Source of the DNA: an uncultured Rhodobiaceae bacterium
Lineage (GTDB): Bacteria > Pseudomonadota > Alphaproteobacteria > Rhizobiales > TMED25
Length of the DNA: 61,286 nucleotides
Reading direction: 5' to 3'
NCBI GenBank assembly: GCA_913030915.1
Contig: CAJWEW010000007.1
Span: 1 to 61,286 of the forward strand
Shown here: positions 5,767 to 58,258 of the stretch, piece after piece
Numbering within the stretch: position 1 is the stretch's first letter
Layout of the letters: each line of letters starts with the position of its first letter
Notes under the pieces: generated by a model
The model's database searches: none
What the model saw: only the letters and a program-made list of their open reading frames with translations
What the model was told of the DNA's origin: nothing
Program-made: the position numbers and the translations under genes

Positions 5767-6558
5767 CTACATATAAATTAATTCCGGTATCATCCTTGCA
5801 ACTGACTTAATATGATTATCTTCTTTATCTAATATTTCTCTTATCTTTATAAAATTTTCAATTCGTACATCCATACTGTTCATATTACTATGAATGATTT
5901 TATTTTTTTGTACATATATCGCTACATGACCTTCCCAAAAAATAATATCACCCCTTCTTAAATTACTGATTTCTGGATAAACCTCTGAGGTCTCACAGAA
6001 TTTTTTACATTGCTGTATACTGTCCCTAGGGCACTCATAACCAACCGCATTGAGTGAAGTTTGAACCAATCCAGAACAATCTATTCCAAGAATAGTTCTC
6101 CCACCCCATTTATATGGTGCACCAACATAACTTTTTGCTACATCAACAAAATCAGTTTTTTTTTCGAGATTTCTCCGAATATGACTCATATTTATAAATC
6201 CATCCTCAAAATTAACTTTGACAAAATTATTTTTCATGTTCGACGAGTCACAAAAGACTCTTGAATTTCTGAATAAAGTTTTTTTAATAGGCGATTTTGG
6301 GTCTGGGCTGGAATATATGTGGGCACTATTCGAATTGATTTTAAGAGAAGAATTACTTAATTTATGGTCCCCAACTCTAGTAGCGTTTTTTACCACATAA
6401 CCGCGATAGTCATCATTTGATAATCTTCCATATATCCACTCTTCATCTTCATCTTCAATCTTTATAAATTCACCGTAAAGAGCTTCTGATATTGTTTCAG
6501 AAGAATTTGATGGCTCTTTTTTAATATCTGTTTTGGGAATTGTAATAATGCGTTGAAT
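5767..6558 (-). CDS. NlpC/P60 (C40) cell-wall peptidase with N-terminal SH3 domain; probable ATT start
   Basis: The C-terminal half is an NlpC/P60 cysteine peptidase that cleaves murein stem peptides: catalytic Cys in GIDCSGLVQ, His in WEGHVAIYV and a third polar residue in KIIHSN. The N-terminal half is a bacterial SH3 domain. A GTG at 6396 would give only 209 residues and cut this domain in the middle, losing EEWIYGRLSNDDYRGY. Upstream of it the frame is open to a stop at 6568-6570 but has no ATG, GTG or TTG. An ATT at 6556-6558 sits six bases after GAAGG and would give 263 residues, a normal size. The gene is 14 bases downstream of the M17 aminopeptidase, a pairing common in Alphaproteobacteria. 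I see no signal peptide, so export is unclear. Confidence 0.8.
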   Translation of the reverse strand: MQRIITIPKTDIKKEPSNSSETISEALYGEFIKIEDEDEEWIYGRLSNDDYRGYVVKNATRVGDHKLSNSSLKINSNSAHIYSSPDPKSPIKKTLFRNSRVFCDSSNMKNNFVKVNFEDGFINMSHIRRNLEKKTDFVDVAKSYVGAPYKWGGRTILGIDCSGLVQTSLNAVGYECPRDSIQQCKKFCETSEVYPEISNLRRGDIIFWEGHVAIYVQKNKIIHSNMNSMDVRIENFIKIREILDKEDNHIKSVARMIPELIYM

Positions 6559-6572
6559 GCTACACCTTCAAA

Positions 6573-7931
6573 TTATTTATTAATATAAAGCTCTTTTATC
6601 AGCTGGTAAATAGCTCTGATGCCCTGTGCGGCTCCACCTTTGGGGATATACCGGTTTGTACCATTATTCCAGGAGTAAACATCAAAATGTAAATAATTAT
6701 TTGTGTTAGTAATAAATTTTTTCAGAAACTCTGCTGCGATAATAGAGCCTGCAAACGGTGTATTTGGTGAATTATTCAGGTCTGAGATCTCATTATTGAG
6801 CCATTTTCCGTATGGCGCAAAAAATGGAAGTTCCCAAACTGGATCTTGAACATTTTGCGAAACTTCTTTTAGGGTGTTGGAAATTGCCTTACTCGTACTA
6901 AAGAATGGAACTATCTCTGGTCCCACCGCCACTCTTGCCGCTCCTGTCAAGGTAGCCATATCGATGATTAAGTCAGGAGAATCCTCATCAGCGAGTGTGA
7001 GAGAGTCTGCTAATATCAATCTACCCTCAGCATCAGTGTTTCCAATTTCAACCGTTAAACCTGATCTTGAACTTAAAATATCGCCAGGCCGGAAGGAATT
7101 ACTTGAAATTGAGTTCTCAGCGATTGGTATTAATACTCTCAAGTTTAAATTCAGTTTATTCCCAATTATCATATTTGCGAGGCCCAATATATTTGCCGCC
7201 CCACCCATATCTTTTTTCATTAGAAGCATACCAGATGAAGGTTTAATATCTAAGCCACCTGTATCAAAAGTAATGCCTTTCCCAACTAGTGTAACTTTTG
7301 GATCATTTTTTTTCCCCCAATTAATCTCAACTAACCTTGGTTTATGTGAGCTTGCTTTTCCAACCTCGTATATAAGAGGGAAATTATATTTCATTAGATC
7401 TTCTCCGATAATTTCCGTAACTTTACAGTTTTTTTTCGAGAAATATTTTCCAATTATTTTTGCAAATTCTTCAGTTGTAAGTCTATTTGCGGGATGATTT
7501 ATAAGATCCATTGTAAAAAAGATACTTTCTACATGTATACTTACCGCACTATGGATCTTACCAGGAAGAAAAAGCTTTGACGTGGAAATTGGTTCACTGT
7601 CATATTTATAGCAACCCAAAGCCCAGCTTATATATGGTAAAGTTTCGTCAGGATCTAAATTTGAAATGTAGTAATTATTACTAGGTAATTTTTTTGCCAA
7701 ATTACTGCAAATAAATTTAGAGTAAACATCATTTTCATTTGGTTTTCCCAGTAAAACTTTTCTTATATTATCTTTATCCTTTGGGATTATGACCACCTCA
7801 CCAGGATCAGCTGTGAATGTATTTTGCTCGATCCAACTTCTTTGATCTGGGTTTTCTCTAAGGTAGTTGTTTAATTTATCTTTGCTTATAAGCTCAATTT
7901 CAATTGCATTATTTCTATTTTTTGTGAACAT
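6573..7931 (-). CDS. M17 family leucyl aminopeptidase (PepB/PepA-like)
   Basis: This is a cytosolic metallo-aminopeptidase that removes N-terminal residues from peptides. The M17 signature NTDAEGRL is present near residue 298, and the metal/substrate region VGKGITFDTGGLDIKP near residue 217 carries the catalytic Lys and Asp. The 452-residue length is that of the short alphaproteobacterial leucyl aminopeptidase group rather than of PepA (about 500). It is probably the first gene of a pair with the NlpC/P60 peptidase. Opposite the Yej importer it fits a role in breaking down imported peptides, although that link is inference. Confidence 0.9.
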   Translation of the reverse strand: MFTKNRNNAIEIELISKDKLNNYLRENPDQRSWIEQNTFTADPGEVVIIPKDKDNIRKVLLGKPNENDVYSKFICSNLAKKLPSNNYYISNLDPDETLPYISWALGCYKYDSEPISTSKLFLPGKIHSAVSIHVESIFFTMDLINHPANRLTTEEFAKIIGKYFSKKNCKVTEIIGEDLMKYNFPLIYEVGKASSHKPRLVEINWGKKNDPKVTLVGKGITFDTGGLDIKPSSGMLLMKKDMGGAANILGLANMIIGNKLNLNLRVLIPIAENSISSNSFRPGDILSSRSGLTVEIGNTDAEGRLILADSLTLADEDSPDLIIDMATLTGAARVAVGPEIVPFFSTSKAISNTLKEVSQNVQDPVWELPFFAPYGKWLNNEISDLNNSPNTPFAGSIIAAEFLKKFITNTNNYLHFDVYSWNNGTNRYIPKGGAAQGIRAIYQLIKELYINK

Positions 7932-7950
7932 TTTTTACCATTACAATAAA

Positions 7951-8418
7951 TTAATATATATTTGCATCCAGTCCAGCCGCGATCGTTGCGCCGAGATGAA
8001 AGCATTGATCTTTAAAATTGTCATTCCAACTGCCCTTGAGTATAAGTGGTTTTTGTACCTCTTTCCACTTTAAACCAGTTATTATTCTTTTTATATTTAC
8101 CTCAGTACCTGTACCATCATGTCCTGCTCGAATATATATTGCGTATGGCATACCATTTGTTTTATCGATACAGTGATTATAATTTCTGTCAAAAAAATCT
8201 TTGATAATCCCACTCATATAACCAAGGTTTTCGGTAGTACCAATTATTATTCCAGCTGAGTCTAGGATATGGTTATGGCTTACTTCTCGAGCATCGTAAG
8301 CCAATATTTTAATATTATTTGACTCAATAGATTTGGCACCTTTTTGTGTCTCGTAAAGTAATATCTCAGTATTTTTTGTTGGTAAATTTGATAATATAAG
8401 TAGTTTCTTCATCATCAA
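7951..8418 (-). CDS. Flavodoxin-like / NAD(P)H-dependent FMN-binding protein
   Basis: This 155-residue protein has a flavodoxin-type fold: an N-terminal strand KKLLILSNLPTKNTE whose loop would bind FMN phosphate, then the segment GIIIGTTENLGYMSG and a later YIRAGHDGTG segment, typical flavin-ring loops. Relatives are annotated as flavodoxin family or NADPH-dependent FMN reductase. Its redox partner cannot be told from the sequence. It lies 19 bases upstream of the M17 aminopeptidase on the same strand and may be the first gene of that transcript. Confidence 0.7.
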   Translation of the reverse strand: MMMKKLLILSNLPTKNTEILLYETQKGAKSIESNNIKILAYDAREVSHNHILDSAGIIIGTTENLGYMSGIIKDFFDRNYNHCIDKTNGMPYAIYIRAGHDGTGTEVNIKRIITGLKWKEVQKPLILKGSWNDNFKDQCFHLGATIAAGLDANIY

Positions 8419-8481
8419 TTTAGAGTAAATAACAAAGAAAGGATTTTCAATATAATCTTTTAATTATATATTTATAATAAG

Positions 8482-8556
8482 TGGTGCCGCAGGAGTGGAT
8501 TGAACACTCGACCTCACCCTTACCAAGGGTGCGCTCTACCACTGAGCTACTGCGGC
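8482..8556 (-). tRNA. tRNA-Thr (GGT anticodon)
   Basis: On the minus strand the sequence folds as a cloverleaf. A 7-bp acceptor stem (GCCGCAG with CTGCGGC) is followed by A73 and an encoded CCA. The D arm is GCTCAGTGGTAGAGC. The anticodon stem CACCC/GGGTG encloses the loop TTGGTAA with anticodon GGT, and the T arm contains GTTCAATCC. A promoter candidate lies just upstream. Confidence 0.95.
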
Positions 8557-8567
8557 TTCATATGCAT

Positions 8568-8596
8568 TTGTAAAATATTAATCAATCAAACATAAT
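8568..8596 (+). promoter_or_regulatory. Candidate sigma-70 promoter for the murA operon
   Basis: TTGTAA at 8568-8573 and CATAAT at 8591-8596 are separated by exactly 17 bases. Transcription would begin near 8603, about six bases before the small Lys-rich gene, which lacks a Shine-Dalgarno sequence, so its message would be almost leaderless. The site overlaps the opposing tRNA-Thr promoter candidate. This is an inference from the sequence match only. Confidence 0.45.
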
Positions 8597-8600
8597 ACAA
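8572..8600 (-). promoter_or_regulatory. Candidate sigma-70 promoter for tRNA-Thr
   Basis: On the minus strand TTGTAT (8595-8600) and TATTTT (8572-8577) are 17 bases apart and end 15 bases before the mature tRNA. The site lies on the opposite strand of the murA operon promoter candidate, within the same 33 bases, so the two promoters would compete for polymerase. Confidence 0.4.
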
Positions 8601-8608
8601 CTCGAAAT

Positions 8609-8740
8609 ATGGCAAAATTAAGAAAAAAAGACAATCAAAAATTAGCTACTGCTTTGAAAGAGAATTTGAAGAAACGAAAAGCTCAAGCAATCAAGAAAAA
8701 AGAAAAGAAAGCAAATAATAGCGAAGCAAAAGATGGATAA
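8609..8740 (+). CDS. Small Lys-rich conserved-looking protein upstream of murA
   Basis: This 43-residue protein begins MAKLRKKDNQKLATALKEN and is very rich in Lys (16 of 43) with Ala and Asn. It looks like one amphipathic basic helix with the core ALKENLKKRKAQA. I recall similar short proteins with an LRENLKRRKAQ-like core in other Alphaproteobacteria, but I cannot check this. Its stop overlaps the murA start by eight bases, so the two are probably translationally coupled. No ribosome site is visible before its ATG. No function is known to me; RNA or membrane binding is possible from the charge alone. Confidence 0.7.
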   Translation: MAKLRKKDNQKLATALKENLKKRKAQAIKKKEKKANNSEAKDG

Positions 8741-10010
8741 AATTCGAATTGTCGGCGGTAACAGGCTAAATGGAAAAGTTTCAATTTCGGGTTCAAAGAA
8801 CTCGTCACTTCCTATTATGATTTCATCCATCCTAACGGATGATGTATTACAAATACATAATGTACCTAATCTAACAGATATAAAAACGCTCACATTTATT
8901 TTAGAGGAGCTTGGCGCAAGTATAAATCAAATTAGGGCAAAAGACAGCGATCTCAGCGGGGCTATTTCCATCAACATGGCTAATATAGGTAGCACAACAG
9001 CTGGGTACGAAAATGTTTCCAAAATGAGGGCAAGCTTTCTAGTAATCGGTCCTTTACTTGCAAGAGAGGGTCACGCTCGTGTTTCAATGCCAGGTGGTTG
9101 TGCCATTGGTACGCGTCCAGTTGATATTCATTTAAACGGCCTAAAAGCATTGGGTGCCGACGTCAAAGTTGAGAAGGGATTTGTCATAGCAGAGGCTAAG
9201 AAAGGCCTGACAGGTAATCATATTCGATTAGAAAAACCATCTGTAGGCGCAACTCAAAATTTAATTATGGCGTCATCACTTGCAAAGGGCGAAACGAAGA
9301 TAAGCAACGCATCAATTGAGCCTGAAGTTTTAGATTTAATTGATTGCCTAAAAAAAATGGGAGCAAATATTGAGATAAACGAAAAAAATATATTTATTAA
9401 TGGGCAAGAAACACTTCATGGTGCATCGCATACGGTCATGTCTGACAGGATTGAGGCTGTAACTTTTGCAATTGCGGCATGTATTACAAGAGGAAATTTA
9501 ATATTGCAGGGTTGCGACCCAAATGTCTTGGAACTACCTCTGCGTCTATTAAGAAATATTGGTTTCCAAATAAAAGAAATCGATAATGGCATACATGTTG
9601 ATGACTGCCTGATAGATGAAATTAAACCCATAGTGCTTATAACGGAACCCTATCCTGGTTTTCCAACAGATTTACAAGCACAGTTTATGGCATTACTTTC
9701 ACAAGCGGACGGTGTTTCAGTGATAAATGAAAAAATTTTTGAAAATAGATTTATGCATGTGCAGGAATTAGTTAGAATGGGAGCAGATATATATTTAGAT
9801 GGAGACCAAGCAATAATAACTGGCAAAGCAAATTTAGTGGGTGCTCAAGTAATGGCTACAGATCTTAGAGCATCTGTATCCCTTGTAATTGCAGCCTTAT
9901 GCGCAGAAGGAGAAACCATAATAAATAGAGTTTATCATTTAGATCGGGGTTTTGAAAATTTAGAGAAAAAATTATCAAATTGCGGTGCGGACATAGAGAG
10001 AATAAGATAG
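8733..10010 (+). CDS. murA: UDP-N-acetylglucosamine 1-carboxyvinyltransferase
   Basis: MurA transfers enolpyruvate from phosphoenolpyruvate to UDP-GlcNAc, the first committed step of peptidoglycan synthesis in the cytoplasm. The N-terminal KNSSLPIM segment carries the conserved Lys-Asn. The active-site Cys is in PGGCAIGTRPVDIH near residue 127, so fosfomycin-type alkylation would be expected. The late segment EPYPGFPTDLQAQ holds the conserved catalytic Asp. The length of 425 residues is normal. It overlaps the preceding small gene and is followed nine bases later by hisD, an order frequent in Alphaproteobacteria. Confidence 0.96.
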   Translation: MDKIRIVGGNRLNGKVSISGSKNSSLPIMISSILTDDVLQIHNVPNLTDIKTLTFILEELGASINQIRAKDSDLSGAISINMANIGSTTAGYENVSKMRASFLVIGPLLAREGHARVSMPGGCAIGTRPVDIHLNGLKALGADVKVEKGFVIAEAKKGLTGNHIRLEKPSVGATQNLIMASSLAKGETKISNASIEPEVLDLIDCLKKMGANIEINEKNIFINGQETLHGASHTVMSDRIEAVTFAIAACITRGNLILQGCDPNVLELPLRLLRNIGFQIKEIDNGIHVDDCLIDEIKPIVLITEPYPGFPTDLQAQFMALLSQADGVSVINEKIFENRFMHVQELVRMGADIYLDGDQAIITGKANLVGAQVMATDLRASVSLVIAALCAEGETIINRVYHLDRGFENLEKKLSNCGADIERIR

Positions 10011-10018
10011 AATTTAGA

Positions 10019-11320
10019 ATGAAAAAAATATTTAATATTAACGACATGAAGTCAATGAGTGAGTTTTATCAGCAACAAGCTAAAAGGAAGCTGAACTTTA
10101 ATGAAATCTCCGGTGAAGTTGATGCTATAATTTCATCAATCAAGAAAAGTAAAGACTCCGCACTTCTAAGGTATACTAATGAGCTTGATAATAACCAGTT
10201 ATCACAAGAAGATTTAAAACTCGATAAGAATTTGTTGAGCAAAAGTATTGAAAATATAAGTAAAGAACTTTTAAGTTCCTTAAATTATGCGCATGATAGA
10301 ATTCTTGCATACCATAAAAAATTAAAACCTGAAAATCTATCTTACACAGATCAAATTAATGTTAAAATCGAGCAAAGATGGACACCAATAGAGTCGGTTG
10401 GTGTCTATGTACCAGGTGGGAAGGCAATGTATCCAAGCAGTGTCCTAATGAATGTTATACCGGCACAAGTGGCGGGTGTTAGCCGCATTGTAATGGTAAC
10501 ACCATCTATGAATGGTGTCCTAAATAGTTCGATACTAGCGGCGGCGAGTATTTGTAATGTGGAAGAAGTCTATAGGATTGGCGGAGCCCAAGCTATTGCA
10601 GCTCTTGCATATGGGACTGATAAAATAGATAAAGTTGATATGATTGTAGGTCCCGGGAATAGTTATGTTGCAGCTGCAAAAAAACTGGTTTTTGGTGACG
10701 TAGGTATTGATATGGTCGCAGGACCTTCAGAAGTTATGGTTGTTGCTGATGCAGATATGGATATAGAATGGGTTGTAGAAGATCTTTTTGCACAAGCAGA
10801 GCACGACGACAATGCCCAATCAATTCTTGTAACAAAGGATATTGATTTTGCAAAAAGTGTTCTGGAACGAATAAATCAAAGATTAGAGGATCTTGATGAT
10901 AGCGAAACCCTTAAAAAAAGTTGGACCCAGTATGGTTGTATAATAATATGTGATACAAGTGAAGAAATCATAAAATTTATAAATGAACTAGCCCCTGAAC
11001 ATTTGCAGTTATGTACGTCAGATGCGCGCGATTTATCTGAGCAAGTTAAAAATGCTGGGGCAATATTTGTTGGTAAATATACACCAGAAGCAGCTGGTGA
11101 TTATGTTGTTGGAACGAATCACGTATTACCTACAATGCAAACCGCACGATTTTCCTCTGGGCTATCTGTTCAGACTTTTATGAAACGAACATCTGTTGTT
11201 GAGTGTGATAAATCGAATTTTAATGAAATAGCCCCAAGCGCAATTACAATCGCTGAGCAAGAGGGTCTCACATCACACGCTGACTCATTAAGGGCGAGAT
11301 TGAACCGAGAAGATGATTAA
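10019..11320 (+). CDS. hisD: Histidinol dehydrogenase
   Basis: HisD performs the last two steps of histidine synthesis, oxidising L-histidinol to histidine with two NAD+. Recognisable segments are VGVYVPGGKAMYPSSVLMN, IGGAQAIAALAYGT, VGPGNSYVAAAKK, AQAEHDDNAQ and NELAPEHLQL, the last two containing catalytic and zinc-binding His and Glu. The ATG at 10019 is chosen because a possible earlier start lies inside murA and adds 13 non-homologous residues. The 433-residue length is normal. No other his genes except hisC are in the window. Confidence 0.96.
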   Translation: MKKIFNINDMKSMSEFYQQQAKRKLNFNEISGEVDAIISSIKKSKDSALLRYTNELDNNQLSQEDLKLDKNLLSKSIENISKELLSSLNYAHDRILAYHKKLKPENLSYTDQINVKIEQRWTPIESVGVYVPGGKAMYPSSVLMNVIPAQVAGVSRIVMVTPSMNGVLNSSILAAASICNVEEVYRIGGAQAIAALAYGTDKIDKVDMIVGPGNSYVAAAKKLVFGDVGIDMVAGPSEVMVVADADMDIEWVVEDLFAQAEHDDNAQSILVTKDIDFAKSVLERINQRLEDLDDSETLKKSWTQYGCIIICDTSEEIIKFINELAPEHLQLCTSDARDLSEQVKNAGAIFVGKYTPEAAGDYVVGTNHVLPTMQTARFSSGLSVQTFMKRTSVVECDKSNFNEIAPSAITIAEQEGLTSHADSLRARLNREDD

Positions 11321-11325
11321 GAAAG

Positions 11326-11931
11326 ATGGCTCCACGCTTAATATTAGCTAGTAATTCAATCCGTAGGTATGATTTATTAGGCCAAGTTGGGATTGTCCCT
11401 GATATCGTTGACCCTAGTAACGTGGATGAAACTATTAAAGATCAGAGCTTGTCACCACATCAAATAGCCCTGATGCTCGCGAGGAAAAAAGCGCATTCTG
11501 TTTCCGAAAATGGACAATATAAAAATGACTTTATATTAGCTGCAGACACAGTCGTTGCAATCGGTAGAACAGTTATGGAAAAAACTGAAGATATTGAAAA
11601 GGCGAGAGAAATCTTGAATTCATTATCTGGCCGTAACCACAGAGTTTTTACCGCTGTATGTGTACGAGATCAAAAAGGTATTTTTTATAATAGGACTGTT
11701 GAGACACGGGTTAAATTTAAGACGTTATCCGAAAGTGAAATACATCGCTATCTCAAAACGGGTGAATGGAGGGGCAAGGCAGGAGCATACGCCATACAGG
11801 GCATTGCAGGAGGATTTGTCATAAGACTAATTGGCTCATACTCGTCAGTGGTCGGCTTACCTTTATATGAGACTTTAAATTTACTCAATGGAATTGGCTT
11901 TAATGCACAAAATAAACCGAAAAATAAATAA
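11326..11931 (+). CDS. maf: Maf-family nucleoside triphosphate pyrophosphatase
   Basis: Maf proteins hydrolyse non-canonical or damaged nucleoside triphosphates. The N-terminal LILASNSIRRYDLL is the family's substrate loop, although the usual Pro of SPRR is Ile here. AADTVVAIG carries the catalytic Asp, and KAGAYAIQGIAG is the conserved late segment. It follows hisD by five bases and precedes an overlapping unknown gene. At 201 residues the size is typical. Whether it acts on UTP/TTP (YhdE type) or 7-methyl-GTP cannot be told safely. Confidence 0.9.
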   Translation: MAPRLILASNSIRRYDLLGQVGIVPDIVDPSNVDETIKDQSLSPHQIALMLARKKAHSVSENGQYKNDFILAADTVVAIGRTVMEKTEDIEKAREILNSLSGRNHRVFTAVCVRDQKGIFYNRTVETRVKFKTLSESEIHRYLKTGEWRGKAGAYAIQGIAGGFVIRLIGSYSSVVGLPLYETLNLLNGIGFNAQNKPKNK

Positions 11932-12304
11932 ACTCACTAATTACTGGATATACTCAGGATTGCTTATTTTGATAATAATGATGGTACTTTTCTATTTCGT
12001 TCATTCAAATACTCAAAGTAATAGTTTTGATGAGGAGCAGAGCTGGATAAGCTATAAGTTTATTAATAATAATTTGGTCATGGAATTTCCATATCTGATA
12101 AAAAAAAGATGTTTGATAAAAGAGGTAAGGTATGGAATTAATAACGCAAAACCAAATAATATCCTTGTGATGCCAATGTGTGAAAGTGAAATTAAGGAAA
12201 TAGAGAAATATAGAACTATCCCGCCATCAACATCGAAGGTTAGCTTGTATCTCATCATGATTGATGGTACTAAAACAAAAGCTCGAGAATTCTATGTTAA
12301 TTAA
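11903..12304 (+). CDS. Unknown single-pass membrane protein
   Basis: I do not recognise this 133-residue protein. A short basic cytoplasmic start is followed by one strongly hydrophobic segment (about residues 14-35, YSGLLILIIMMVLFYFV). The remaining soluble domain of roughly 95 residues probably faces the periplasm and has two Cys about 26 residues apart (KKRCLIKE and MPMCESE) that could pair. It overlaps the end of maf by 29 bases and precedes yacG. In many Alphaproteobacteria this slot holds an RNase E/G gene, but nothing here resembles an RNase. An ATG at 11888 would add five residues. Confidence 0.6.
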   Translation: MHKINRKINKLTNYWIYSGLLILIIMMVLFYFVHSNTQSNSFDEEQSWISYKFINNNLVMEFPYLIKKRCLIKEVRYGINNAKPNNILVMPMCESEIKEIEKYRTIPPSTSKVSLYLIMIDGTKTKAREFYVN

Positions 12305-12345
12305 AAATTGTAATTAATTAATATCTTATTATGTAGATGTAAGTT

Positions 12346-12549
12346 ATGAAAAAAGAAAAATGCCCAATGTGTAAAAAATCATCGAGCTCAAAATTCGAAC
12401 CCTTTTGTTCTGAGAAATGCGCAAACAAGGATTTGGGTAATTGGCTTACTGGAAAATATTATATACCGGGTGAGAAAGTTAATGATGAAATGATTAATGA
12501 GAACCCTGAGATAATTGATATAATAAAAAAAGATAAGCTAGACTTCTAA
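12346..12549 (+). CDS. yacG: YacG zinc-binding protein, DNA gyrase inhibitor family
   Basis: This 67-residue protein has the four-Cys zinc site of YacG: CPMC near residue 6 and FCSEKC near residue 24, followed by the conserved DLGNWLTGKYYIPGE segment. E. coli YacG binds GyrB and blocks DNA binding by gyrase. In Alphaproteobacteria the gene usually follows maf, as here, and lies just before a tRNA-Phe gene. Confidence 0.9.
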   Translation: MKKEKCPMCKKSSSSKFEPFCSEKCANKDLGNWLTGKYYIPGEKVNDEMINENPEIIDIIKKDKLDF

Positions 12550-12581
12550 TTAAAAAATTCATATAAATAGGAATATTATGT

Positions 12582-12657
12582 GCCCTGATAGCTCAGTTGG
12601 TAGAGCAAACGACTGAAAATCGTTGTGTCCCTAGTTCAAATCTAGGTCAGGGCACCA
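12582..12657 (+). tRNA. tRNA-Phe (GAA anticodon)
   Basis: The acceptor stem GCCCTGA/TCAGGGC is followed by A73 and an encoded CCA. The D arm is GCTCAGTTGGTAGAGC, the anticodon stem ACGAC/GTTGT (ending in a G-T wobble pair) encloses the loop TGAAAAT with anticodon GAA, and the T arm contains GTTCAAATC. It lies 32 bases after yacG and may be cut from that transcript. A run of eight T follows the CCA. The accessory metabolic block begins directly downstream. Confidence 0.96.
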
Positions 12658-12667
12658 CAAATTTTTT

Positions 12668-14553: not shown

Positions 14554-14562
14554 ATCCCTACT

Positions 14563-15663: not shown

Positions 15664-15687
15664 CGATTATATTCTCCTAAATTGTAA

Positions 15688-17070: not shown

Positions 17071-17114
17071 TTTTGGTCTCCCTCACTATACTTCATTTAT
17101 CAAGAGTTATAGGT

Positions 17115-17147
17115 TACTAATAATAGATGATCTGTCAATACTAATAA
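17115..17147. repeat. Nine-base direct repeat in the divergent promoter region
   Basis: TACTAATAA occurs at 17115-17123 and again at 17139-17147, a start-to-start distance of 24 bases. The pair is in the 130-base space between the divergent MmgE/PrpD and Gfo/Idh genes, the only probable control region of the accessory block. It could be a regulator binding site, although AT-rich repeats also arise by chance. A perfect TTGACA occurs on the minus strand at 17133-17138 but lacks a well-spaced -10 element. Confidence 0.35.
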
Positions 17148-18967: not shown

Positions 18968-18968
18968 G

Positions 18969-26461: not shown

Positions 26462-26567
26462 TTCGTGCCCCTTCTTTAATTTCTATTTTTTTTATATTGA
26501 ATATATATTATATTCTCAATTAATTAAATTATATTATTCTATTATAACTTCGACCGAGGATAGAAAA

Positions 26568-27512
26568 ATAAACATACCATCAAATAAGAGTAAAATCGTT
26601 TCCATTTTGGGTGGTAATGGATTCATAGGACGGAATTTAGTTCGAGAACTCGCGAAAGCAGGCTATAGAATAAAAATTGGTACCAGAAACCCGGCTACAG
26701 CAAATCACCTAAGTGTTTCTGGTGTTCCAGGACAAATAGAAGTTTCTAGGGTAAATGTGAATGACGAGCGCTCAATTAATAAGTTTATCCAAAGTTCCGA
26801 TTATGTCATCAACTTAGTAGGTATTTTGGAAGAGAGAAAAAGACAAAAATTCCAATACATTCATGCTGAGTTACCTGGGATTATTGCGAAGATTTGCACT
26901 GAATATGACGTAAAAAGACTTATACATATGTCATCTTTAGGTGCCGATTTAAATTCAAGTTCAAAATATCAGAAAAGTAAGGCAATGGGTGAGGCTTCCA
27001 TACAAAGCGAAAGCTCAAATTATACGATAATCAGACCTTCTGTTGTTTTTGGTTATGATGATAATTTTTTTAATCAATTTGCAAGGATTCTGTCACTATC
27101 TCCAATTTTCCCATTAATCGGGAATGGAGAAACAAAATTCCAGCCAGTTTATGTACTTGACTTAGTGAAGCTAATAATTTCACACATAGAAGATACCGAT
27201 AGAAAAAATATTTATGAAATTGGAGGTAAAGAAATTTATTCTCTTAGGGAAGTTATTGAGTTAATTTTGGCTACAATTAAAAAGAAAAGGATCCTAATTC
27301 CAATACCATTTTCGTTATCAAAAATATTCATAACGCCAATGCAATTTTTACCAAAGAGACCTATTACATTTGATCAACTCGAGTCACTAAAAACTGATAA
27401 TGTCCTGTTACATACTCAAAATGAAGAGATCGGTAAGCTCGAAGATTATGATATTGAAGCATGTTCTGCAAAAAATATTATCCCTGAATATTTAGGACGT
27501 TTTTCAAGTTAG
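26568..27512 (+). CDS. NDUFA9-like NAD(P)-binding protein; probable ATA start
   Basis: This is an atypical short-chain dehydrogenase of the complex I NDUFA9 subunit family. The dinucleotide motif is SILGGNGFIGRNLVREL, and the YQKSKAMGE segment near residue 140 carries the atypical active site. Reading upstream, the frame has no ATG or GTG; the only standard start is a TTG at 26451, which would overlap the rnd start and add 39 residues of AT-rich, promoter-like sequence. An ATA at 26568 lies eight bases after GAGG and begins the protein 11 codons before the first beta strand, as in relatives. With that start it has 314 residues. It converges on uppP with four bases between. Confidence 0.75.
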   Translation: MNIPSNKSKIVSILGGNGFIGRNLVRELAKAGYRIKIGTRNPATANHLSVSGVPGQIEVSRVNVNDERSINKFIQSSDYVINLVGILEERKRQKFQYIHAELPGIIAKICTEYDVKRLIHMSSLGADLNSSSKYQKSKAMGEASIQSESSNYTIIRPSVVFGYDDNFFNQFARILSLSPIFPLIGNGETKFQPVYVLDLVKLIISHIEDTDRKNIYEIGGKEIYSLREVIELILATIKKKRILIPIPFSLSKIFITPMQFLPKRPITFDQLESLKTDNVLLHTQNEEIGKLEDYDIEACSAKNIIPEYLGRFSS

Positions 27513-32080: not shown

Positions 32081-32110
32081 TCTTAGTAAAACTATCATTG
32101 GAGATTAATC

Positions 32111-32653
32111 ATAGCCAGAAGAACAGAAGATTTCGCAAGAAAAAAAACTGAGCCTGCACATAAAATAAATAATCTGATAGACGCAGGGAATATAAGACTT
32201 ATAGGACCAAACAGCGAAAATTATGGTGAAGTAACTCTAGATATTGGTTTACAAGAGGCTGAAAAATTTTCGTTAGACCTCGTAGAAATTTCTCCAAACA
32301 CAGACTTACCAGTATGTAAAATAATGGATTATGGTAAGTTTAAGTATCAATCACAAAAGAAAGCAGCTGAAGCCAAAAAGAAGCAGAAAGTAATCGGCGT
32401 TAAAGAGATTAAGATGCGTCCAAACATTGATACACATGACTATGAAGTAAAATTAAAAAATATGAAAAAATTCATAGAATTTGGAGATAAAGTGAAGATA
32501 TCGCTAATGTTTCGCGGACGGGAAATGTCTCATTCGGAGCTTGGGGTAAAACTTTTTGATCGAATAAAAAATGATACAGATGAGTTTGCGAAAGTTGAGC
32601 TTGAGCCAAAATTTGAAGGACGGCAAATCATCATGGTGTTAGCGCCAAAATAA
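32111..32653 (+). CDS. infC: Translation initiation factor IF-3; non-AUG start
   Basis: IF-3 checks start-codon pairing and keeps ribosomal subunits apart. The N-domain begins ARRTEDFARKKTEPAHKIN, followed by the linker region MDYGKFKYQSQKKAAEAKKKQ and the C-domain with VKEIKMRPNIDTHDYEVK and SLMFRGREMSHSE. The first in-frame ATG, at 32324, would delete the whole N-domain. Upstream there is no ATG, GTG or TTG after the stop at 32087-32089. ATA at 32111 lies seven bases after GGAG (an ATC at 32108 is also possible), giving 180 residues. infC in E. coli and many bacteria uses AUU or similar for autoregulation by IF-3, so this is expected. Confidence 0.93.
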   Translation: MARRTEDFARKKTEPAHKINNLIDAGNIRLIGPNSENYGEVTLDIGLQEAEKFSLDLVEISPNTDLPVCKIMDYGKFKYQSQKKAAEAKKKQKVIGVKEIKMRPNIDTHDYEVKLKNMKKFIEFGDKVKISLMFRGREMSHSELGVKLFDRIKNDTDEFAKVELEPKFEGRQIIMVLAPK

Positions 32654-48652: not shown

Positions 48653-48681
48653 ATTACCACTTTAAAATAAAAGATCAGATT

Positions 48682-49590: not shown

Positions 49591-49602
49591 TATCACCCGA
49601 CG

Positions 49603-50304: not shown

Positions 50305-50313
50305 TCAAATCAC

Positions 50314-50907: not shown

Positions 50908-50922
50908 TATGCCATTATTAAT

Positions 50923-51561: not shown

Positions 51562-52232
51562 TTATTTCGTATCCTAATTTCATTATTTTCTATATCAATA
51601 ATGCTCGCTCGCTTGTGCGATATGAGACTCTCATCGTGTGTTGCTATGATAATAGTTGTTCCTAATTTATTCATTTCACTAAACAGGCCAAGAATTTTTT
51701 TTGAATTTTCATAATCAACGTTACCGGTCGGTTCATCAGCGAGTATTAGCTTTGGTGACGATATTACGGCTCTAGCAATTGCAGCTCTCTGTTGTTCCCC
51801 ACCTGATAAATAATTTGGATAGCTATGGGTGCAGTGCTCCAGATTTACCCAATTGAGTAGCTCAATAACATCCTTTTTGTAGCTTTTTTCTTTTTTATTT
51901 TGAACTTTTAACGGTAATGCAACATTCTCATATGTTGTTAAGTGGGGTAGTAATCGAAAATCCTGAAAAACGAAGCCGATTTTTCTTTTTATATTGTATA
52001 GCTTATTTTGCGGTATGGTATTTAAATTGATCCCATTAAATAACACGCTACCGCTTGTCGGTCTTAATGATGACGAGAGAAGTTTTAGGAAGGTCGTTTT
52101 TCCCGCGCCAGAAGATCCTGTAATAAAATAAAAATCACCCTCTTTTATATTTAAACTTATATCATTAAAAATATCTCGGGATATACTATATCTATGATAA
52201 ACATTTTCTAACGATAATAGGGTGTCTGCCAT
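51558..52232 (-). CDS. ftsE: Cell-division ATP-binding protein FtsE
   Basis: FtsE is the ATPase partner of FtsX. Walker A is GSSGAGKTTFLKLL, the Q-loop segment is FVFQDFRLLPHLT, the signature is YLSGGEQQRAAIARA, and Walker B is LILADEPTGNVD. It lies 14 bases downstream of lysA and overlaps ftsX by four bases. The length of 224 residues is normal. Confidence 0.95.
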   Translation of the reverse strand: MADTLLSLENVYHRYSISRDIFNDISLNIKEGDFYFITGSSGAGKTTFLKLLSSSLRPTSGSVLFNGINLNTIPQNKLYNIKRKIGFVFQDFRLLPHLTTYENVALPLKVQNKKEKSYKKDVIELLNWVNLEHCTHSYPNYLSGGEQQRAAIARAVISSPKLILADEPTGNVDYENSKKILGLFSEMNKLGTTIIIATHDESLISHKRASIIDIENNEIRIRNK

Positions 52233-52246
52233 TTTATCCTAAAAAT

Positions 52247-53503
52247 TTATAACCAATTTGCTATCCTCTCTCGAGTTAGCATATCTTTCACCTCAACCCT
52301 CTCACGAATAACTTCATATTTATCGTTTTGAACAATTATTTCTGCGATTTGTGGTCTCGAGTTGTAATTTGAGGATAGTACAGAGCCATAAGCTCCTACT
52401 GACTTAATTGCAATTAAACTGCCAACTTGTACAGAATTCATATTTCTATTTTTTGCAAAGTAATCACCTGTTTCACAGATTGGTCCAACGATATCATATA
52501 GCTTGTTCGAGGTTCCAAGATTATTCTTAACAGGAAGTATTTCATGGTAAGAGTTATATAAGGTTGGTCTGATGAAATCATTCATGGCTGCGTCCACGAT
52601 GACAAAGGTTTTCTGACTTGTTGTTTTAATATCTATTACACGGGTCACAAGCAGGCCACTATTTGCCACCAAAAGTCTTCCGGGCTCGATATATACTTCA
52701 ATATTTAAATTACCAAATATGCTTTGTATGAGCGATGCATATTCTTTAAAAGTTGGTACATTATCATCATCCGAATAGGTCACGCCAAGTCCACCGCCCA
52801 GATCCACATGTTTAATTTTATGTCCAAGGCTCCGAAGATCATTAATCAAATCATAGATGATTTGAAAAGCTTTTTTAAACGGCTTTAAGTTAGTGATTTG
52901 ACTTCCAATGTGTACAGAGATCCCGATTATATTTACGTTAGATAACTTGGAAGCTATTTCATACATACTTTTTATGTAATCAAATTCTATGCCAAATTTA
53001 TTTTCAGCTTTACCAGTCGTTATTTTAACATGAGTTTTTGCATCAACATCAGGATTTACCCTCAATGAAATATTCTGTTTAGTATTAAGTTTCTCACATA
53101 TATCATTTATTCTTGTTAATTCTGACTGAGACTCGACATTGATGCAATGGATCTTTTCTTGAATCGCATAAATTAACTCTTCATCAGTTTTCCCAACCCC
53201 AGCATATATAATATCTTTTCCAGTTGCCCCTGCACTAAGTGCGCGCTCAATCTCACCGCCCGATACAACATCAATTCCTGAACCTTGGTTTAGCAGGAGC
53301 TTTAAGATTGATAAGTTTGAATTTGCCTTCATTGAGTAAAATATTTTTGCTTCCATATCAAACGCAGATTTTAGAGCTTGATATTGATCTTCAATATATT
53401 TTTCAGAGTAACAATAGAAAGGGGTTTGATTATCGTTGGCAAGCTTTTCGACACTCAATCCCTCAACGTATAGATTATTACTTTTATATTTTATTGGAGT
53501 CAT
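52247..53503 (-). CDS. lysA: Diaminopimelate decarboxylase
   Basis: LysA removes CO2 from meso-diaminopimelate to make lysine, with PLP. The fold-type III Lys is in IFYSMKANSNLSIL near residue 56. The HVDLGGGLGVTY and EPGRLLVANSG segments bind PLP and substrate, and the catalytic Cys of the second subunit is in VGPICETGDYFAK near residue 336. The length of 418 residues is standard. The order argH-lptM-lysA is conserved in Alphaproteobacteria. Confidence 0.96.
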   Translation of the reverse strand: MTPIKYKSNNLYVEGLSVEKLANDNQTPFYCYSEKYIEDQYQALKSAFDMEAKIFYSMKANSNLSILKLLLNQGSGIDVVSGGEIERALSAGATGKDIIYAGVGKTDEELIYAIQEKIHCINVESQSELTRINDICEKLNTKQNISLRVNPDVDAKTHVKITTGKAENKFGIEFDYIKSMYEIASKLSNVNIIGISVHIGSQITNLKPFKKAFQIIYDLINDLRSLGHKIKHVDLGGGLGVTYSDDDNVPTFKEYASLIQSIFGNLNIEVYIEPGRLLVANSGLLVTRVIDIKTTSQKTFVIVDAAMNDFIRPTLYNSYHEILPVKNNLGTSNKLYDIVGPICETGDYFAKNRNMNSVQVGSLIAIKSVGAYGSVLSSNYNSRPQIAEIIVQNDKYEVIRERVEVKDMLTRERIANWL

Positions 53504-53547
53504 TATTTTATATTTAATACTTTTTAGTCTGCTGAAATAAAAATTAT

Positions 53548-53700
53548 TTAGATCAATCTGTCTAAAATACTCGTTTTCTCAGAGATTGATTCTTTTTCTA
53601 GTTCGATGTCGCCTTTAACGCCGCACGCGCAAAGTGTAATTAATAGCAGAAAAGCCATAATTAATTTCGTTGGTGCACTTTTTTTTTGCTGCTTGTTCAT
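53548..53700 (-). CDS. lptM: Small LptM-like lipoprotein
   Basis: A 50-residue lipoprotein encoded between argH and lysA. A basic start (MNKQQKKSAPTK) leads to a hydrophobic segment (LIMAFLLLITL) and a lipobox-like LCAC, followed by GVKGDIE, which matches the CGxKGPL motif of LptM (YifL). In E. coli LptM binds LptD and assists its oxidative maturation. Its ATG overlaps the argH stop as ATGA. The second Cys of CAC is the probable lipidated residue. Confidence 0.8.
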   Translation of the reverse strand: MNKQQKKSAPTKLIMAFLLLITLCACGVKGDIELEKESISEKTSILDRLI

Positions 53701-55082
53701 TTTATTTTTAGAGCTTTCAACCATTTTTCCGCTTCTTTCTTCACATTTTTTGGGGCAGTTCCGCCCTCGGAAGTCTTATTATGAATAATTCTATCAAATG
53801 ATATTTTATTTACTAGTTCTATTGTAATTCTTGGATCAATTTTCTGATAATCTTCGATAAGAAGTTCATCTAAAGATTTGTTATTCAATTCTGCGAAGCT
53901 AACAATTGATCCAACAATTTTATGTGACTCTCTGAATGGAATACCTAAATCCTGGACTAAAACATCAGCAATATCCGTTGCAATAGAAAACCCATTCTTA
54001 GCTGATTGAAGCATTCTGTCTCTATTTGGTTTCATATCAGTAATCATCTGATTCATAACCCCTAGTGATAATTCTATTGTATCTACGGCATCAAATAATG
54101 GTTCTTTATCCTCTTGAAGATCTTTATTATAAGTCAATGGAAGACCCTTCATGACAACCAACAAAGTGTTTAATGATCCAATGACCCTTCCAGCTTTTGA
54201 ACGAATAATTTCTGCTCCATCTGGATTTCTTTTCTGTGGCATAATTGATGATCCCGTTGTCAGAGAGTCGGGCAAACTTATGAAATTAAATTCTGTAGAA
54301 ACCCACAGGATGATTTCTTCTGCCAGTCTGGATAAATTTACCGATAAAATAGCAATATTTGATAATGTCTCAAGAAGCATATCCCTAGATGATACGGCAT
54401 CAATGGAGTTTGACATTGGTTTTTTAAAGCCAAGCAATTTCGAAGAATATTGTCTGTCTATTGGATAGGATGTACCAGCCATTGCTGCAGCGCCGAGAGG
54501 GCTTTCATCTAATCTCTTTAGACTATCTGTCAATCTAAGTTTATCTCTATTTAACAATTCAACATAGGAAAGCAGGTGATGCCCGAGGGTAATTGGTTGT
54601 GCAATTTGTAGATGAGTATACCCTGGCATTATGGCATCATAATTATCGAAAGCTTGCTGTGAAAGCGTTTTTTGATTTTCTTCAATTAGCTGTATGATGG
54701 TGTTTATTTTTTCGATTAAGAACAATCTAATATCAGTAGAGACTTGATCGTTCCTCGATCTTGCTGTATGAAGTTTACCCGCAATAGGACCAATAATCTC
54801 TGTGAGTCTACTCTCAATATTCATATGAATATCTTCAAGTTTTTTCTTAAATTCAAATTTATCGTTACTAATTTCTTTTTGTACATCTTTTAATCCATTG
54901 ACAATCAGATTGCATTCTTCTTTCCGGATAACACCGGATTTTTCAAGCATCATTGCATGCGCAATCGATACTTCAATGTCATATTTTGCAAGACGATAGT
55001 CATATTTTATTGATGCGTTAAGATCTTCCAGTAGCTCATTCGTAGCTTTAGAAAACCTACCACCCCACATTTTATTTGTCAT
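53697..55082 (-). CDS. argH: Argininosuccinate lyase
   Basis: ArgH splits argininosuccinate into arginine and fumarate. The N-terminal MWGGRFSKATNELLEDLNAS and the family signature GSSIMPQKRNPDG near residue 280 (the mobile loop with the catalytic Ser) are clear, and TARSRNDQVSTD near residue 110 and GYTHLQIAQP near residue 154 are the other two conserved regions. It leads a likely operon with lptM, lysA, ftsE and ftsX. The length of 461 residues is standard. Confidence 0.97.
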   Translation of the reverse strand: MTNKMWGGRFSKATNELLEDLNASIKYDYRLAKYDIEVSIAHAMMLEKSGVIRKEECNLIVNGLKDVQKEISNDKFEFKKKLEDIHMNIESRLTEIIGPIAGKLHTARSRNDQVSTDIRLFLIEKINTIIQLIEENQKTLSQQAFDNYDAIMPGYTHLQIAQPITLGHHLLSYVELLNRDKLRLTDSLKRLDESPLGAAAMAGTSYPIDRQYSSKLLGFKKPMSNSIDAVSSRDMLLETLSNIAILSVNLSRLAEEIILWVSTEFNFISLPDSLTTGSSIMPQKRNPDGAEIIRSKAGRVIGSLNTLLVVMKGLPLTYNKDLQEDKEPLFDAVDTIELSLGVMNQMITDMKPNRDRMLQSAKNGFSIATDIADVLVQDLGIPFRESHKIVGSIVSFAELNNKSLDELLIEDYQKIDPRITIELVNKISFDRIIHNKTSEGGTAPKNVKKEAEKWLKALKIK

Positions 55083-55112
55083 TATACTTCCACGCTCAAG
55101 TAAAGTTGAAAT

Positions 55113-55142
55113 ATTATAATAATTATGAAGGCAAAAAGATAA
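55113..55142 (-). promoter_or_regulatory. Possible promoter for argH
   Basis: On the minus strand TATAAT (55113-55118) is preceded, 18 bases away, by TTATCT (55137-55142). The -10 is perfect but the -35 is poor. It lies in the 68-base gap between hbd and argH, about 31 bases before the argH ATG. Confidence 0.3.
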
Positions 55143-55150
55143 TAATTTAT

Positions 55151-55960
55151 TTAATATTTATAAAATCCTTCCTTTGTTTTGCGGCCCAGCTTTCCACACT
55201 GGACATATTCTTCTAACAAAGGGCACGGTTTATATTTTGAGTCATTGAAATCTTCTTGGAGTATCCTCAGAATTGATAAACAAGTATCCAAACCTATAAA
55301 GTCAGCTAACTCTAGTGGTCCCATGGGGTGATTTGCTCCTACTTTTAATGCTGTATCGATAGACTTAGCATCCGATGTGTCATTCTCGAGGCAATAAATT
55401 GCTTCGTTTATCATCGGTAACAAAATTCTATTCACTATAAAACCAGGTTTATCATTGCATTCTATTGATATCATATCCATTACATCAAGATACTGCGTTA
55501 TTTCTGTGAGAATTTTCTTATCAAGCGCCCTATGATTGATTATTTCGACAAGCTTGATTATCTGCGGCGGGTTCATAAAATGAAGACCAAGAAATCTCTC
55601 AGGGTATTGAAGACTGCTTGCTAATCTATGAATTGATATTGAAGATGTATTGGTCGCAATAATTGTTTTTCTGTTGCAATTTTTCTCAATATTTTTGAAG
55701 AAATTTGACTTTATGTTCTCATCTTCAGTCAAACATTCAATAATTAAATCACAGTTTTTCAATGAAGATATTTTATCTTTATATTTTACTGTAGCCTGCA
55801 GATTTGATTCATTGATTTTTTTATCAAGTTTACCTTTAGCATTGGACAGCTGACTTTCTTCTGTATCAAAAATAATCACGTCATAGCCCGCATGTAGGTT
55901 AGTTTCTGCGATCGCAGATCCCATTAATCCACAACCAGCAATACCGACCTGAGTAACCAT
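55151..55960 (-). CDS. 3-hydroxyacyl-CoA (3-hydroxybutyryl-CoA) dehydrogenase
   Basis: This enzyme oxidises 3-hydroxyacyl-CoA to the 3-keto form with NAD. The dinucleotide motif is GIAGCGLMGSAIAE. The catalytic Ser-His-Glu-Asn set is seen in TNTSSISIH, LGLHFMNPPQIIKLVEII and GFIVNRILLPMINEA. At 269 residues it is slightly shorter than the usual 285-290. It lies four bases after etfA, so it is co-expressed with its electron acceptor, a typical arrangement. Confidence 0.91.
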   Translation of the reverse strand: MVTQVGIAGCGLMGSAIAETNLHAGYDVIIFDTEESQLSNAKGKLDKKINESNLQATVKYKDKISSLKNCDLIIECLTEDENIKSNFFKNIEKNCNRKTIIATNTSSISIHRLASSLQYPERFLGLHFMNPPQIIKLVEIINHRALDKKILTEITQYLDVMDMISIECNDKPGFIVNRILLPMINEAIYCLENDTSDAKSIDTALKVGANHPMGPLELADFIGLDTCLSILRILQEDFNDSKYKPCPLLEEYVQCGKLGRKTKEGFYKY

Positions 55961-55964
55961 TTTT

Positions 55965-56909
55965 TTATTTTTGTATTTTTTCGAGTTCTTTATCTAGATC
56001 AGGAACTGCATCGAATAAATCGGCAACTAAGCCATAATCGGCAACCTCAAATATTGGAGCTTCTTCATCTTTGTTTATTGCAACAATGACTTTAGAGTCT
56101 TTCATGCCAGCTAGATGCTGAATAGCTCCGGATATGCCAACCGCGATATAAAGTTCAGGAGCAACGACTTTTCCAGTTTGCCCCACTTGGTATTCATTTG
56201 GAACAAAACCTGAGTCAACAGCTGCCCGGCTTGCGCCCACAGCGGCGCCAAGTTTGTCCGCAACAGACTCTAGCAACTTGAAATTATCTCCAGATTGCAT
56301 TCCCCTCCCACCGGAGACTATGGTGCCAGCTGATGTCAGTTCAGGCCTTTCACCACCAGACACTTTTTCTTCAACGAACTCAGATAGGCCTGGATTTTTT
56401 TCTATTCCGATTGAGCTTATTTCGGCAGTTGATTTGCTTTCTTTCGCGGTTTCAAATGCAGTTGTCCTAATTGTTATGACATTCTTATCAGTTGAACTTT
56501 CAACTGTAGCAATCGCATTACCTGCATATATTGGTCTTTGAAATGTTTTTCCATCAACAACATTAATAATCTCTGATATTTGGCTAACATCTAATTTTGC
56601 TGCAACTCTTGGCAGTATGTTCTTTCCATTTGTGGTCGCCGCAGATACCAGATAATCATACTCGTTCATAAGATCAATTAATAATTCAGAAATGGGCTCT
56701 GATAACATATTTTTATAGTGTGAGTTTTCAGCAAGCAAAACCTTTTCTACGCCTTCTGTTGAAGCTGCATCATTTGCAGCATTTGCACAATCCATACCCG
56801 CAACTAGAACATGGACAGGACTAGCAATCTTTGAGGCTGCAGTAATTGCTTTCTTGGTTGCCTCTTTAAGAATTTCATTGTTATGTTCTGCTAATACTAA
56901 AATACTCAT
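55965..56909 (-). CDS. etfA: Electron transfer flavoprotein alpha subunit
   Basis: EtfA binds FAD and passes electrons from acyl-CoA dehydrogenases to the ETF-quinone oxidoreductase. The C-terminal FAD domain has GGRGMQSGDNFKLLE, GASRAAVDSGF, QVGQTGKVVAPELYIAVGISGA and the late ADLFDAVPDL segments, all canonical. The start overlaps the last base of the etfB stop. The length of 314 residues is normal. Confidence 0.97.
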   Translation of the reverse strand: MSILVLAEHNNEILKEATKKAITAASKIASPVHVLVAGMDCANAANDAASTEGVEKVLLAENSHYKNMLSEPISELLIDLMNEYDYLVSAATTNGKNILPRVAAKLDVSQISEIINVVDGKTFQRPIYAGNAIATVESSTDKNVITIRTTAFETAKESKSTAEISSIGIEKNPGLSEFVEEKVSGGERPELTSAGTIVSGGRGMQSGDNFKLLESVADKLGAAVGASRAAVDSGFVPNEYQVGQTGKVVAPELYIAVGISGAIQHLAGMKDSKVIVAINKDEEAPIFEVADYGLVADLFDAVPDLDKELEKIQK

Positions 56910-57658
56910 TATATTACTCCTGAAACGTTTTTTAATTTATCCACTAAATCCTCTATTGAGTCAACCTTTCCACCACCTATTCTTATTGGAGGCTCTTCTA
57001 CTTTTTTAGTAACAACTTTAGGTTGCATTTCAATTTGTAAGCTCGCAGGATCAACTTCGTCAATGGTCTTTTGCTTTGCTTTCATAATGTTAGGTAATGA
57101 GGCATATCTCGGTTCATTTAATCGTAAATCTGTTGTTAGTACAGCAGGTTTTGCAAGCTTGATTGTTTGTAGACCGCCATCTATTTCTCTTGTAACGACA
57201 AATGAGTCATTCTCAATTTCAATTTTTGATGCGTATGTGCCAATTGAACAACCCAAAAGGGCTGATAGCATTTGTCCTGTTTGATTGCAATCATCATCAA
57301 TAGATTGTTTTCCTAATATTATTAAATCAAACGCTTCTTTTTCAATTATCTTTGCTAGAATTTTTGCAACAAGCAGTGGCTCTGGAGAATGTTCTGTCTT
57401 TACATGAATACCTCTGTCAGCACCCATTGCTAGTGCATTCCTGATTGTTTCTTTTGATTGTTCAGGCCCAAGAGAAACTACAACTATTTCATCACACTTT
57501 CCACCTTCTTTTATCCTTATTGCTTCTTCGACAGCAATTTCATCAAATGGGTTGATGGACATCTTGACATTATTTAGGTCAACCGAATTTGTTTCTTTAT
57601 CAACTCTGATTTTAACGTTGTAATCAACAACTCTCTTTACTGGTACGAGTATTTTCAT
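56909..57658 (-). CDS. etfB: Electron transfer flavoprotein beta subunit
   Basis: EtfB pairs with EtfA and binds AMP. The N-terminus MKILVPVKRVVDYNVKIRV and NPFDEIAVEEAIRIKE near residue 36 are standard. The segment LVAKILAKIIEKEAFDLIILGKQSIDDDCNQTG (read in two pieces: KEAFDLIILGKQSIDDD and NQTGQM) and the recognition-loop region PRYASLPNIMKAK are typical of the ETF group that serves beta-oxidation. The length of 249 residues is normal. Confidence 0.97.
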   Translation of the reverse strand: MKILVPVKRVVDYNVKIRVDKETNSVDLNNVKMSINPFDEIAVEEAIRIKEGGKCDEIVVVSLGPEQSKETIRNALAMGADRGIHVKTEHSPEPLLVAKILAKIIEKEAFDLIILGKQSIDDDCNQTGQMLSALLGCSIGTYASKIEIENDSFVVTREIDGGLQTIKLAKPAVLTTDLRLNEPRYASLPNIMKAKQKTIDEVDPASLQIEMQPKVVTKKVEEPPIRIGGGKVDSIEDLVDKLKNVSGVI

Positions 57659-57670
57659 AATTATTCTCCG

Positions 57671-58258
57671 TTACTCCTCGTAGTTATTACCTGGTATCCA
57701 AAGTATGTCTTCAAAATCTAATTTCAAGTTTACATACCTTGCTGCAACAAATAGGAAGTCGGATAATCTATTAATATATTGAACCGCTTCCTTACTGATT
57801 TCAGACTCCTCAATTTGTCTTAGTTCTATCATCTCCCTCTCACAACGTCTAGCGATTGTTCTTGCTATATGAATATATGCTGAGACTTTTGTGCCACCTG
57901 GCAGAATAAAAGATCTTAATGGCTCAAGTTGGCTATTTAGTTTATCAATTTCTTTTTCAAGGTTCTTAACATAATTGTTAACTATTTTGAGGCTGTCTGC
58001 GTTTTTATCTTTATCCGGTATACAGAGGTCTGCGCCAAGATCGAATAAATCATTTTGAATTGTAGCGAGTATTTTGTCTAATTCTTTTAATTTATCTGAC
58101 TCAATAAAAGATCTTGCCAATCCAATGAAGGAGTTCAATTCATCCACTGACCCATATGCAGATACTCTTTTTGAGCTCTTTGCGATACGTTCGCCATTGC
58201 CAAGTGCGGTTGTACCGTCGTCACCTGTTTTTGTATATATTTTGTTTAAGATTACGAT
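57671..58258 (-). CDS. PduO-type cob(I)alamin adenosyltransferase; probable ATC start
   Basis: This enzyme adenosylates cobalamin using ATP. The conserved N-terminal ATP site LNKIYTKTGDDGTTALGNG and SSKRVSAYGSVDELN lie upstream of a GTG at 58147 that would otherwise be the first standard start, so that start would remove the active site. In frame between the stop at 58271-58273 and this region there is no ATG, GTG or TTG. An ATC at 58256-58258, nine bases after AAGGG, gives VILNKIYT directly after the start, in register with the family's MVxLNKIYT. The protein then has 195 residues, a normal size. It lies 12 bases after the HIG1 gene and 12 before etfB. Confidence 0.82.
   Translation of the reverse strand: MVILNKIYTKTGDDGTTALGNGERIAKSSKRVSAYGSVDELNSFIGLARSFIESDKLKELDKILATIQNDLFDLGADLCIPDKDKNADSLKIVNNYVKNLEKEIDKLNSQLEPLRSFILPGGTKVSAYIHIARTIARRCEREMIELRQIEESEISKEAVQYINRLSDFLFVAARYVNLKLDFEDILWIPGNNYEE

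Follow-up and report, generated by a model that had tools for sequence, protein, structure and literature searches.

The gene infC, encoding translation initiation factor 3 (IF3), is autoregulated by its own product and starts with ATT in Escherichia coli, with ATC in Streptomyces and with AUA in Staphylococcus aureus. Another E. coli gene, pcnB, reportedly has an AUU start as well, an observation ascribed to Binns and Masters in 2002. Here we describe six genes that likely start with AUU, AUC or AUA (together AUH, or ATH in DNA) in an uncultured Rhodobiaceae bacterium and its relatives, for which we infer the family label OCS116 cluster (marine Rhizobiales). Four of the six genes lie in one stretch of DNA, called the window (contig CAJWEW010000007.1, positions 1 to 61,286). 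This window corresponds to contig 7 in a 1.31 Mb draft genome (42 contigs, 93% complete).

Non-AUG starts that are sensitive to IF3 have so far been known gene by gene. The GTC start of Streptomyces sigR was shown by experiment to be repressed by IF3 (PMC5472188), and the S. aureus genes cvfC1 (AUU) and ccpN (AUA) have conserved starts, with reporters at about 10% of AUG in poor medium (PMC13009471). Other work states that IF3 excludes weak third-base pairs (PMC10158994), that it acts generally on such codons in the species studied (PMC5472188, PMC10158994), and that 1 of 61,358 ancestral AUG starts had switched to AUU (PMC5622118).

The OCS116 genes share with infC autoregulation an AUH start behind a Shine-Dalgarno (SD) sequence, and infC is itself one of the six. 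In contrast to that system, five unrelated genes carry the trait as well, and an action of IF3 on them is predicted by analogy. Similar to pcnB, the set contains non-infC genes that would be limited by such a start, whereas pcnB is a single gene of RNA metabolism. The sigR gene is comparable in its conserved non-canonical start, strong SD sequence, position outside infC and mis-annotation in databases, but it is one gene with a GTC codon. The genes ccpN and cvfC1 likewise have conserved AUH starts with an extended SD sequence besides infC. However, they are two genes found by ribosome profiling, while OCS116 has five besides infC in another phylum and, at the AUH sites read, shows third-base exchange that never gives AUG. 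In contrast to the experimental repression of sigR and the profiling of ccpN and cvfC1, the OCS116 set is known from sequence alone.

The principle for single genes is thus already published, and a co-inherited AUH set of several genes appears to be the new element. The preliminary description of the window was not aware of any such case; this holds for the multi-gene set, as none was found for Alphaproteobacteria in titles and the beginnings of abstracts of the papers listed (with subscription journals and preprints mostly uncovered), but not for single genes, given sigR, cvfC1 and ccpN. In our best explanation, to which we assign a probability of about 0.62, the AUH codons would be the true starts of six OCS116 genes, kept weak by selection against AUG and repressed by IF3 in step with its level.

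Probable isoleucine start codons in the window and its relatives

Four window genes had been proposed to begin with isoleucine codons after an SD-like sequence, and all four sites were as described. The gene of an NlpC/P60 peptidase with an SH3 domain (5767..6558, minus strand) was read from ATT at 6558-6556, behind GAAGGTG (6563..6569, minus strand). The gene of an NDUFA9-like NAD(P)-binding protein (26568..27512, plus strand) was read from ATA at 26568-26570, behind GAGGAT (26556..26561, plus strand). The infC gene (32111..32653, plus strand) was read from ATA at 32111-32113, behind TTGGAGA (32098..32104, plus strand), and the gene of a PduO-type cobalamin adenosyltransferase (pduO; 57671..58258, minus strand) from ATC at 58258-58256, behind AAGGG (58268..58272, minus strand). 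According to the stop-to-stop frames and codon listings, the spacing between SD sequence and isoleucine codon was 6-9 bases at all four sites. Pfam and NCBIfam matches identified the NlpC/P60 and SH3 domains, a NAD(P)-binding protein of the epimerase type, IF3 and the PduO-type adenosyltransferase. The name NDUFA9 had no support from Pfam or NCBIfam, and is carried by one related public protein (P0125).

The four window genes had no common ATG, GTG or TTG ahead of their conserved N-termini. The earliest in-frame canonical codon in the window was codon 58 of 266 in the NlpC/P60 gene, 79 of 187 in infC and 42 of 199 in pduO, and in the NlpC/P60 gene of genome G001 a downstream canonical codon appeared only at codon 229 of 266. 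The NDUFA9-like frame had a TTG far upstream in the window, without counterpart in the six other genomes of the same scan. Upstream of pduO and of the NDUFA9-like gene, the neighbour was divergent and not on the same strand.

We compared all stop-to-stop frames in 2.45 million bases, consisting of the window and stretches of seven relatives. This yielded 554 ortholog groups, of which 481 had a pair below 85% identity and 479 were analysed; 63 open reading frames (ORFs) of the window had orthologs in a separate scan of the window genes. Groups were counted in which more than one genome had no ATG, GTG or TTG ahead of the conserved part, with a common ATH codon behind an SD sequence. Six of the 479 groups (~1%) had putative AUH starts, namely the four window genes plus argE and an MFS transporter gene; the pattern in the four window genes is thus more than chance. 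The identity of argE was confirmed by a score above the cut-off of TIGR01892 (acetylornithine deacetylase). The first listing, made without an SD criterion, gave 24 groups, of which 18 were dropped by eye, and all six AUH groups had surfaced there. A second scan with an SD filter flagged 66 groups: 15 alignments were inspected, infC, NDUFA9-like and NlpC/P60 were read separately, while for the remaining 48 the table was the basis of judgement, and seven of these had the common ATH column further inside the protein. The scan cannot detect AUH genes in which a canonical codon follows in frame shortly after the start, and the count of six does not cover them. By extrapolation from six in 479 groups, a genome may have roughly 15 such genes. 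Four of the six groups lie in the window region, which was chosen by the preliminary reader and covered by more genomes, hence we make no claim of clustering.

Cases in a single genome were excluded from this count (ispH in G011; ispE, an esterase gene and others in G012). A canonical start ahead of the conserved part was missing from ispH of G011 (G011:C5:84827-85780) and present in three orthologs. At G012:C8, in the sister genus, ispE (L198:4867-5742, minus strand) and the esterase gene (L161:9621-10292, minus strand) likewise had no canonical codon ahead of their conserved part and could be additional AUH genes of that genome. The hisC gene of G003 and G008, with ATA against ATG in relatives, was rejected as an AUH gene, as a shared TTG two codons further on, six bases behind AAGGAG, makes it ordinary.

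The family was represented by 14 draft genomes: the window genome, 11 others of its genus and two of a sister genus. An AUH codon occupied the start position in 75 of the 77 readable family sites (34 ATT, 27 ATA and 14 ATC). The two other sites were the NlpC/P60 genes of the sister genus, both with ATG. Hence, conservation of the codon, as raised in the preliminary description, was found throughout the readable family copies apart from the sister-genus NlpC/P60 genes. Assembly errors at the window sites, which had been named there as a possible source of the pattern, are unlikely because the other genomes of the genus, where readable, have retained the codon.

In infC, ATA was present in all 14 family genomes, and 15 of the 16 outgroup copies read had ATT, ATC or ATA. 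All 14 family genomes had ATT in the MFS transporter gene, for which the single outgroup copy read had ATG. The argE gene had ATA in six, ATC in four and ATT in three genomes (13 of 13, sister genus included), and a canonical codon near the N-terminus in five of the six outgroup copies inspected. The NDUFA9-like gene had ATH in 13 of 13 readable family copies, the fourteenth (G007) being cut by a contig end; within the genus there were six ATA, four ATT and one ATC, and in both sister genomes ATT immediately followed ATA. For this gene, a canonical codon close to the N-terminus was present in all eight outgroup copies inspected. The NDUFA9-like gene and argE of G003 and G008 both have a stop codon immediately before the ATH codon, and the frame therefore cannot start earlier.

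In pduO, ATH was found in all 11 family genomes with the gene (nine ATC, one ATT, one ATA), and G002 has a TTG five codons upstream of the AUH codon. We kept 80 pduO loci of 479 relatives for comparison. Six of these were in the family, all with ATH, while 73 of the 74 loci outside the family were canonical (67 ATG, 5 GTG, 1 TTG and 1 ATA). At the pduO start site of L099, from an alphaproteobacterium outside the family, ATA stands behind GGAGG, with an in-frame ATG four codons upstream; this is a possible independent AUH case.

The NlpC/P60 gene had ATT in 10 of 10 readable genus copies and ATG in both sister-genus copies. G005 had no match, and the G007 copy was left out because of internal stops. 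The latter (G007:C5:16379-17166) gave two overlapping matches with stops inside, which indicates a frameshift or an assembly error.

Third-base exchange, Shine-Dalgarno sequences and public annotations

Mapped on a tree of these 14 genomes, the third base of the putative start codon changed at least seven times (twice in pduO, twice in the NDUFA9-like gene, three times in argE, and not in infC, MFS and NlpC/P60). All changes were among A, C and T, and none was to G. In contrast, G occurred in some genome at 98 of the 151 four-fold columns of the infC, NDUFA9-like, pduO and argE alignments. Under four-fold drift, the chance that all six sites lack G is ~0.002, or 0.005 without infC. Moreover, isoleucine columns were invariant within the genus at five of five starts versus 38 of 116 internal positions in five of the genes; this comparison did not include the MFS gene, and since the NlpC/P60 rows begin at different codons only their internal columns were taken. 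Because the third base varies among A, C and T but never G, while G is common at four-fold sites, selection against AUG at these sites is likely. AUG would be expected as the strongest choice for a codon read by the initiator formylmethionyl-tRNA (fMet-tRNA), yet it is absent, which suggests that it is avoided.

SD matches of at least four bases were found at 94% of 32 AUH sites, compared to 39% of 685 ATG, 80% of 40 TTG and 85% of 13 GTG sites. By group (six AUH versus 171), the difference had a p value of 0.003. Local RNA structure at the AUH starts did not differ significantly (p = 0.08). Taken together, the claim of an AUU/AUA/AUC set beyond infC stands: the set is real, conserved and SD-bearing, its third base shifts between A, C and T but not to G, in keeping with selection for a weak start sensitive to IF3, and argE and the MFS transporter gene have been added to it.

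Among 34 of 120 public pduO proteins that were examined, 12, with 77-97% identity and all from NCBI, start exactly at the AUH codon. The same start is used in the entry of the window itself (P0001) and in a less closely related NCBI entry (P0047). Most others, including P0005, P0025 and P0050 from NCBI, start 3-5 codons upstream or ~31 codons downstream, the latter in P0028 with 225 member sequences. Entries started upstream have V or L as first residue if the source retains it, and thus use GTG or TTG. None of the 23 public representatives of the NDUFA9-like protein and ArgE examined (of 29) starts on an isoleucine codon, and their largest clusters (203 and 200 members) start 13 and 4 codons further in, respectively. 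These displaced starts fit the absence of a canonical codon at this site in the natural variants, and both proteins are often mis-started in public annotation. Gene callers limited to ATG, GTG and TTG shorten or misplace such genes, as in many of the public proteins here.

Proposed weak starts and a possible role of IF3

In the proposed mechanism, an AUU, AUC or AUA codon behind an SD sequence at the edge of the conserved protein would serve as a weak start, likely the true start of each of the six genes, with initiation presumably by fMet. Selection against AUG would hold these starts weak. IF3 would disfavour them, as with E. coli infC, Streptomyces sigR and the S. aureus cases, including, by analogy, the five genes besides infC. 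The output of the six genes would then be low, and would fall as IF3 rises.

Several observations weigh against this explanation. The third base of infC, MFS and NlpC/P60 is invariant in the family, and the argument from the missing G rests on the three varying sites, with a chance of 0.04. The NlpC/P60 gene starts with ATG in the sister genus, so that its AUH start is limited to one genus. The SD comparison is partly circular, as SD sequences were used in judging argE and MFS and as a scan filter, and is therefore supportive but not independent. Some SD sequences are weak; a copy of pduO and a copy of the NDUFA9-like gene each match at three bases. Two pduO variants, P0038 and P0040, come from non-NCBI sources that usually call ATG, GTG or TTG; they start at the AUH site with M and may carry ATG, contrary to strict avoidance. 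Finally, the five non-infC genes have no evident common function; their roles are in cobalamin cofactor, arginine synthesis, a complex I-like factor, transport and wall hydrolysis.

This lack of a shared function also favours the alternative that the AUH codons are true starts acting as fixed throttles, with each gene kept low separately and the IF3 level no regulator beyond infC. Such throttles fit the sequence data equally well and explain the data overall nearly as well, and the AUU start of S. aureus cvfC1 is weak yet unresponsive to medium (PMC13009471). However, IF3 acts generally on such codons in the species studied, so that some sensitivity to IF3 would be expected regardless. We regard fixed throttles as possible but rather doubtful.

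The preliminary description had also suggested relaxed start selection in this lineage. In such a case, an altered initiator tRNA or IF3 would have allowed genes merely to drift to AUH. The few single-genome cases, such as ispH in G011 and ispE and others in G012, agree with this, and so does the initiator tRNA of G010 (L383; G010:C3:185272-185345), in which A29-U41 replaces the usual G-C in the anticodon stem. However, this arm occurred in 80 of 101 genomes of the order, so we dropped it as the cause of the AUH starts; it may be a permissive background. Relaxed start selection of the mycoplasma-like kind would be expected to bring many non-canonical starts, together with an unusual initiator tRNA or IF3. 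In contrast, only 6 of 479 groups here were AUH, 685 of the 738 confident canonical starts were ATG (with 40 TTG and 13 GTG), and the AUH class was stable over the family rather than scattered. The IF3 gene is single-copy in the window genome, and its product can be aligned along the entire length with IF3 of solved structures, without large change. Among the 33 tRNAs called in G010 (of 34 matches), three had a CAU anticodon, and none was a second, AUH-reading initiator; apart from the initiator, a GGG/CCC anticodon stem occurred in two tRNAs, Gln-TTG and Tyr-GTA. These 33 also lacked a tRNA-Ile with GAU, and the stretches examined gave no 16S 3' end, hence the rRNA operon probably lies outside them. 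The small number of AUH groups and the prevalence of ATG do not favour relaxed start selection, which we consider very improbable.

It is at least as improbable that the codons are not starts, owing to another start codon, a frameshift from an upstream gene or assembly errors: public ORF predictions do start elsewhere for NDUFA9-like, argE and part of the pduO proteins, but downstream canonical codons would cut into the conserved protein (as in NlpC/P60 of G001), stops stand directly upstream in several copies, the genes upstream of pduO and NDUFA9-like are divergent, up to 14 draft genomes have a codon of this class at the site, and 12 of 34 pduO proteins begin exactly there.

If repression in step with the IF3 level is true, weak starting would be an inherited regulatory trait of a bacterial family, IF3 would gain a list of targets, and small-genome ocean bacteria would have a cheap form of regulation. 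More tentatively, and with less than even odds, IF3 could be the hub of an OCS116 translational regulon of these six genes and probably about ten unseen ones, setting a common level with growth. In that case, a ribosomal factor rather than a transcription factor would set the common level of these genes.

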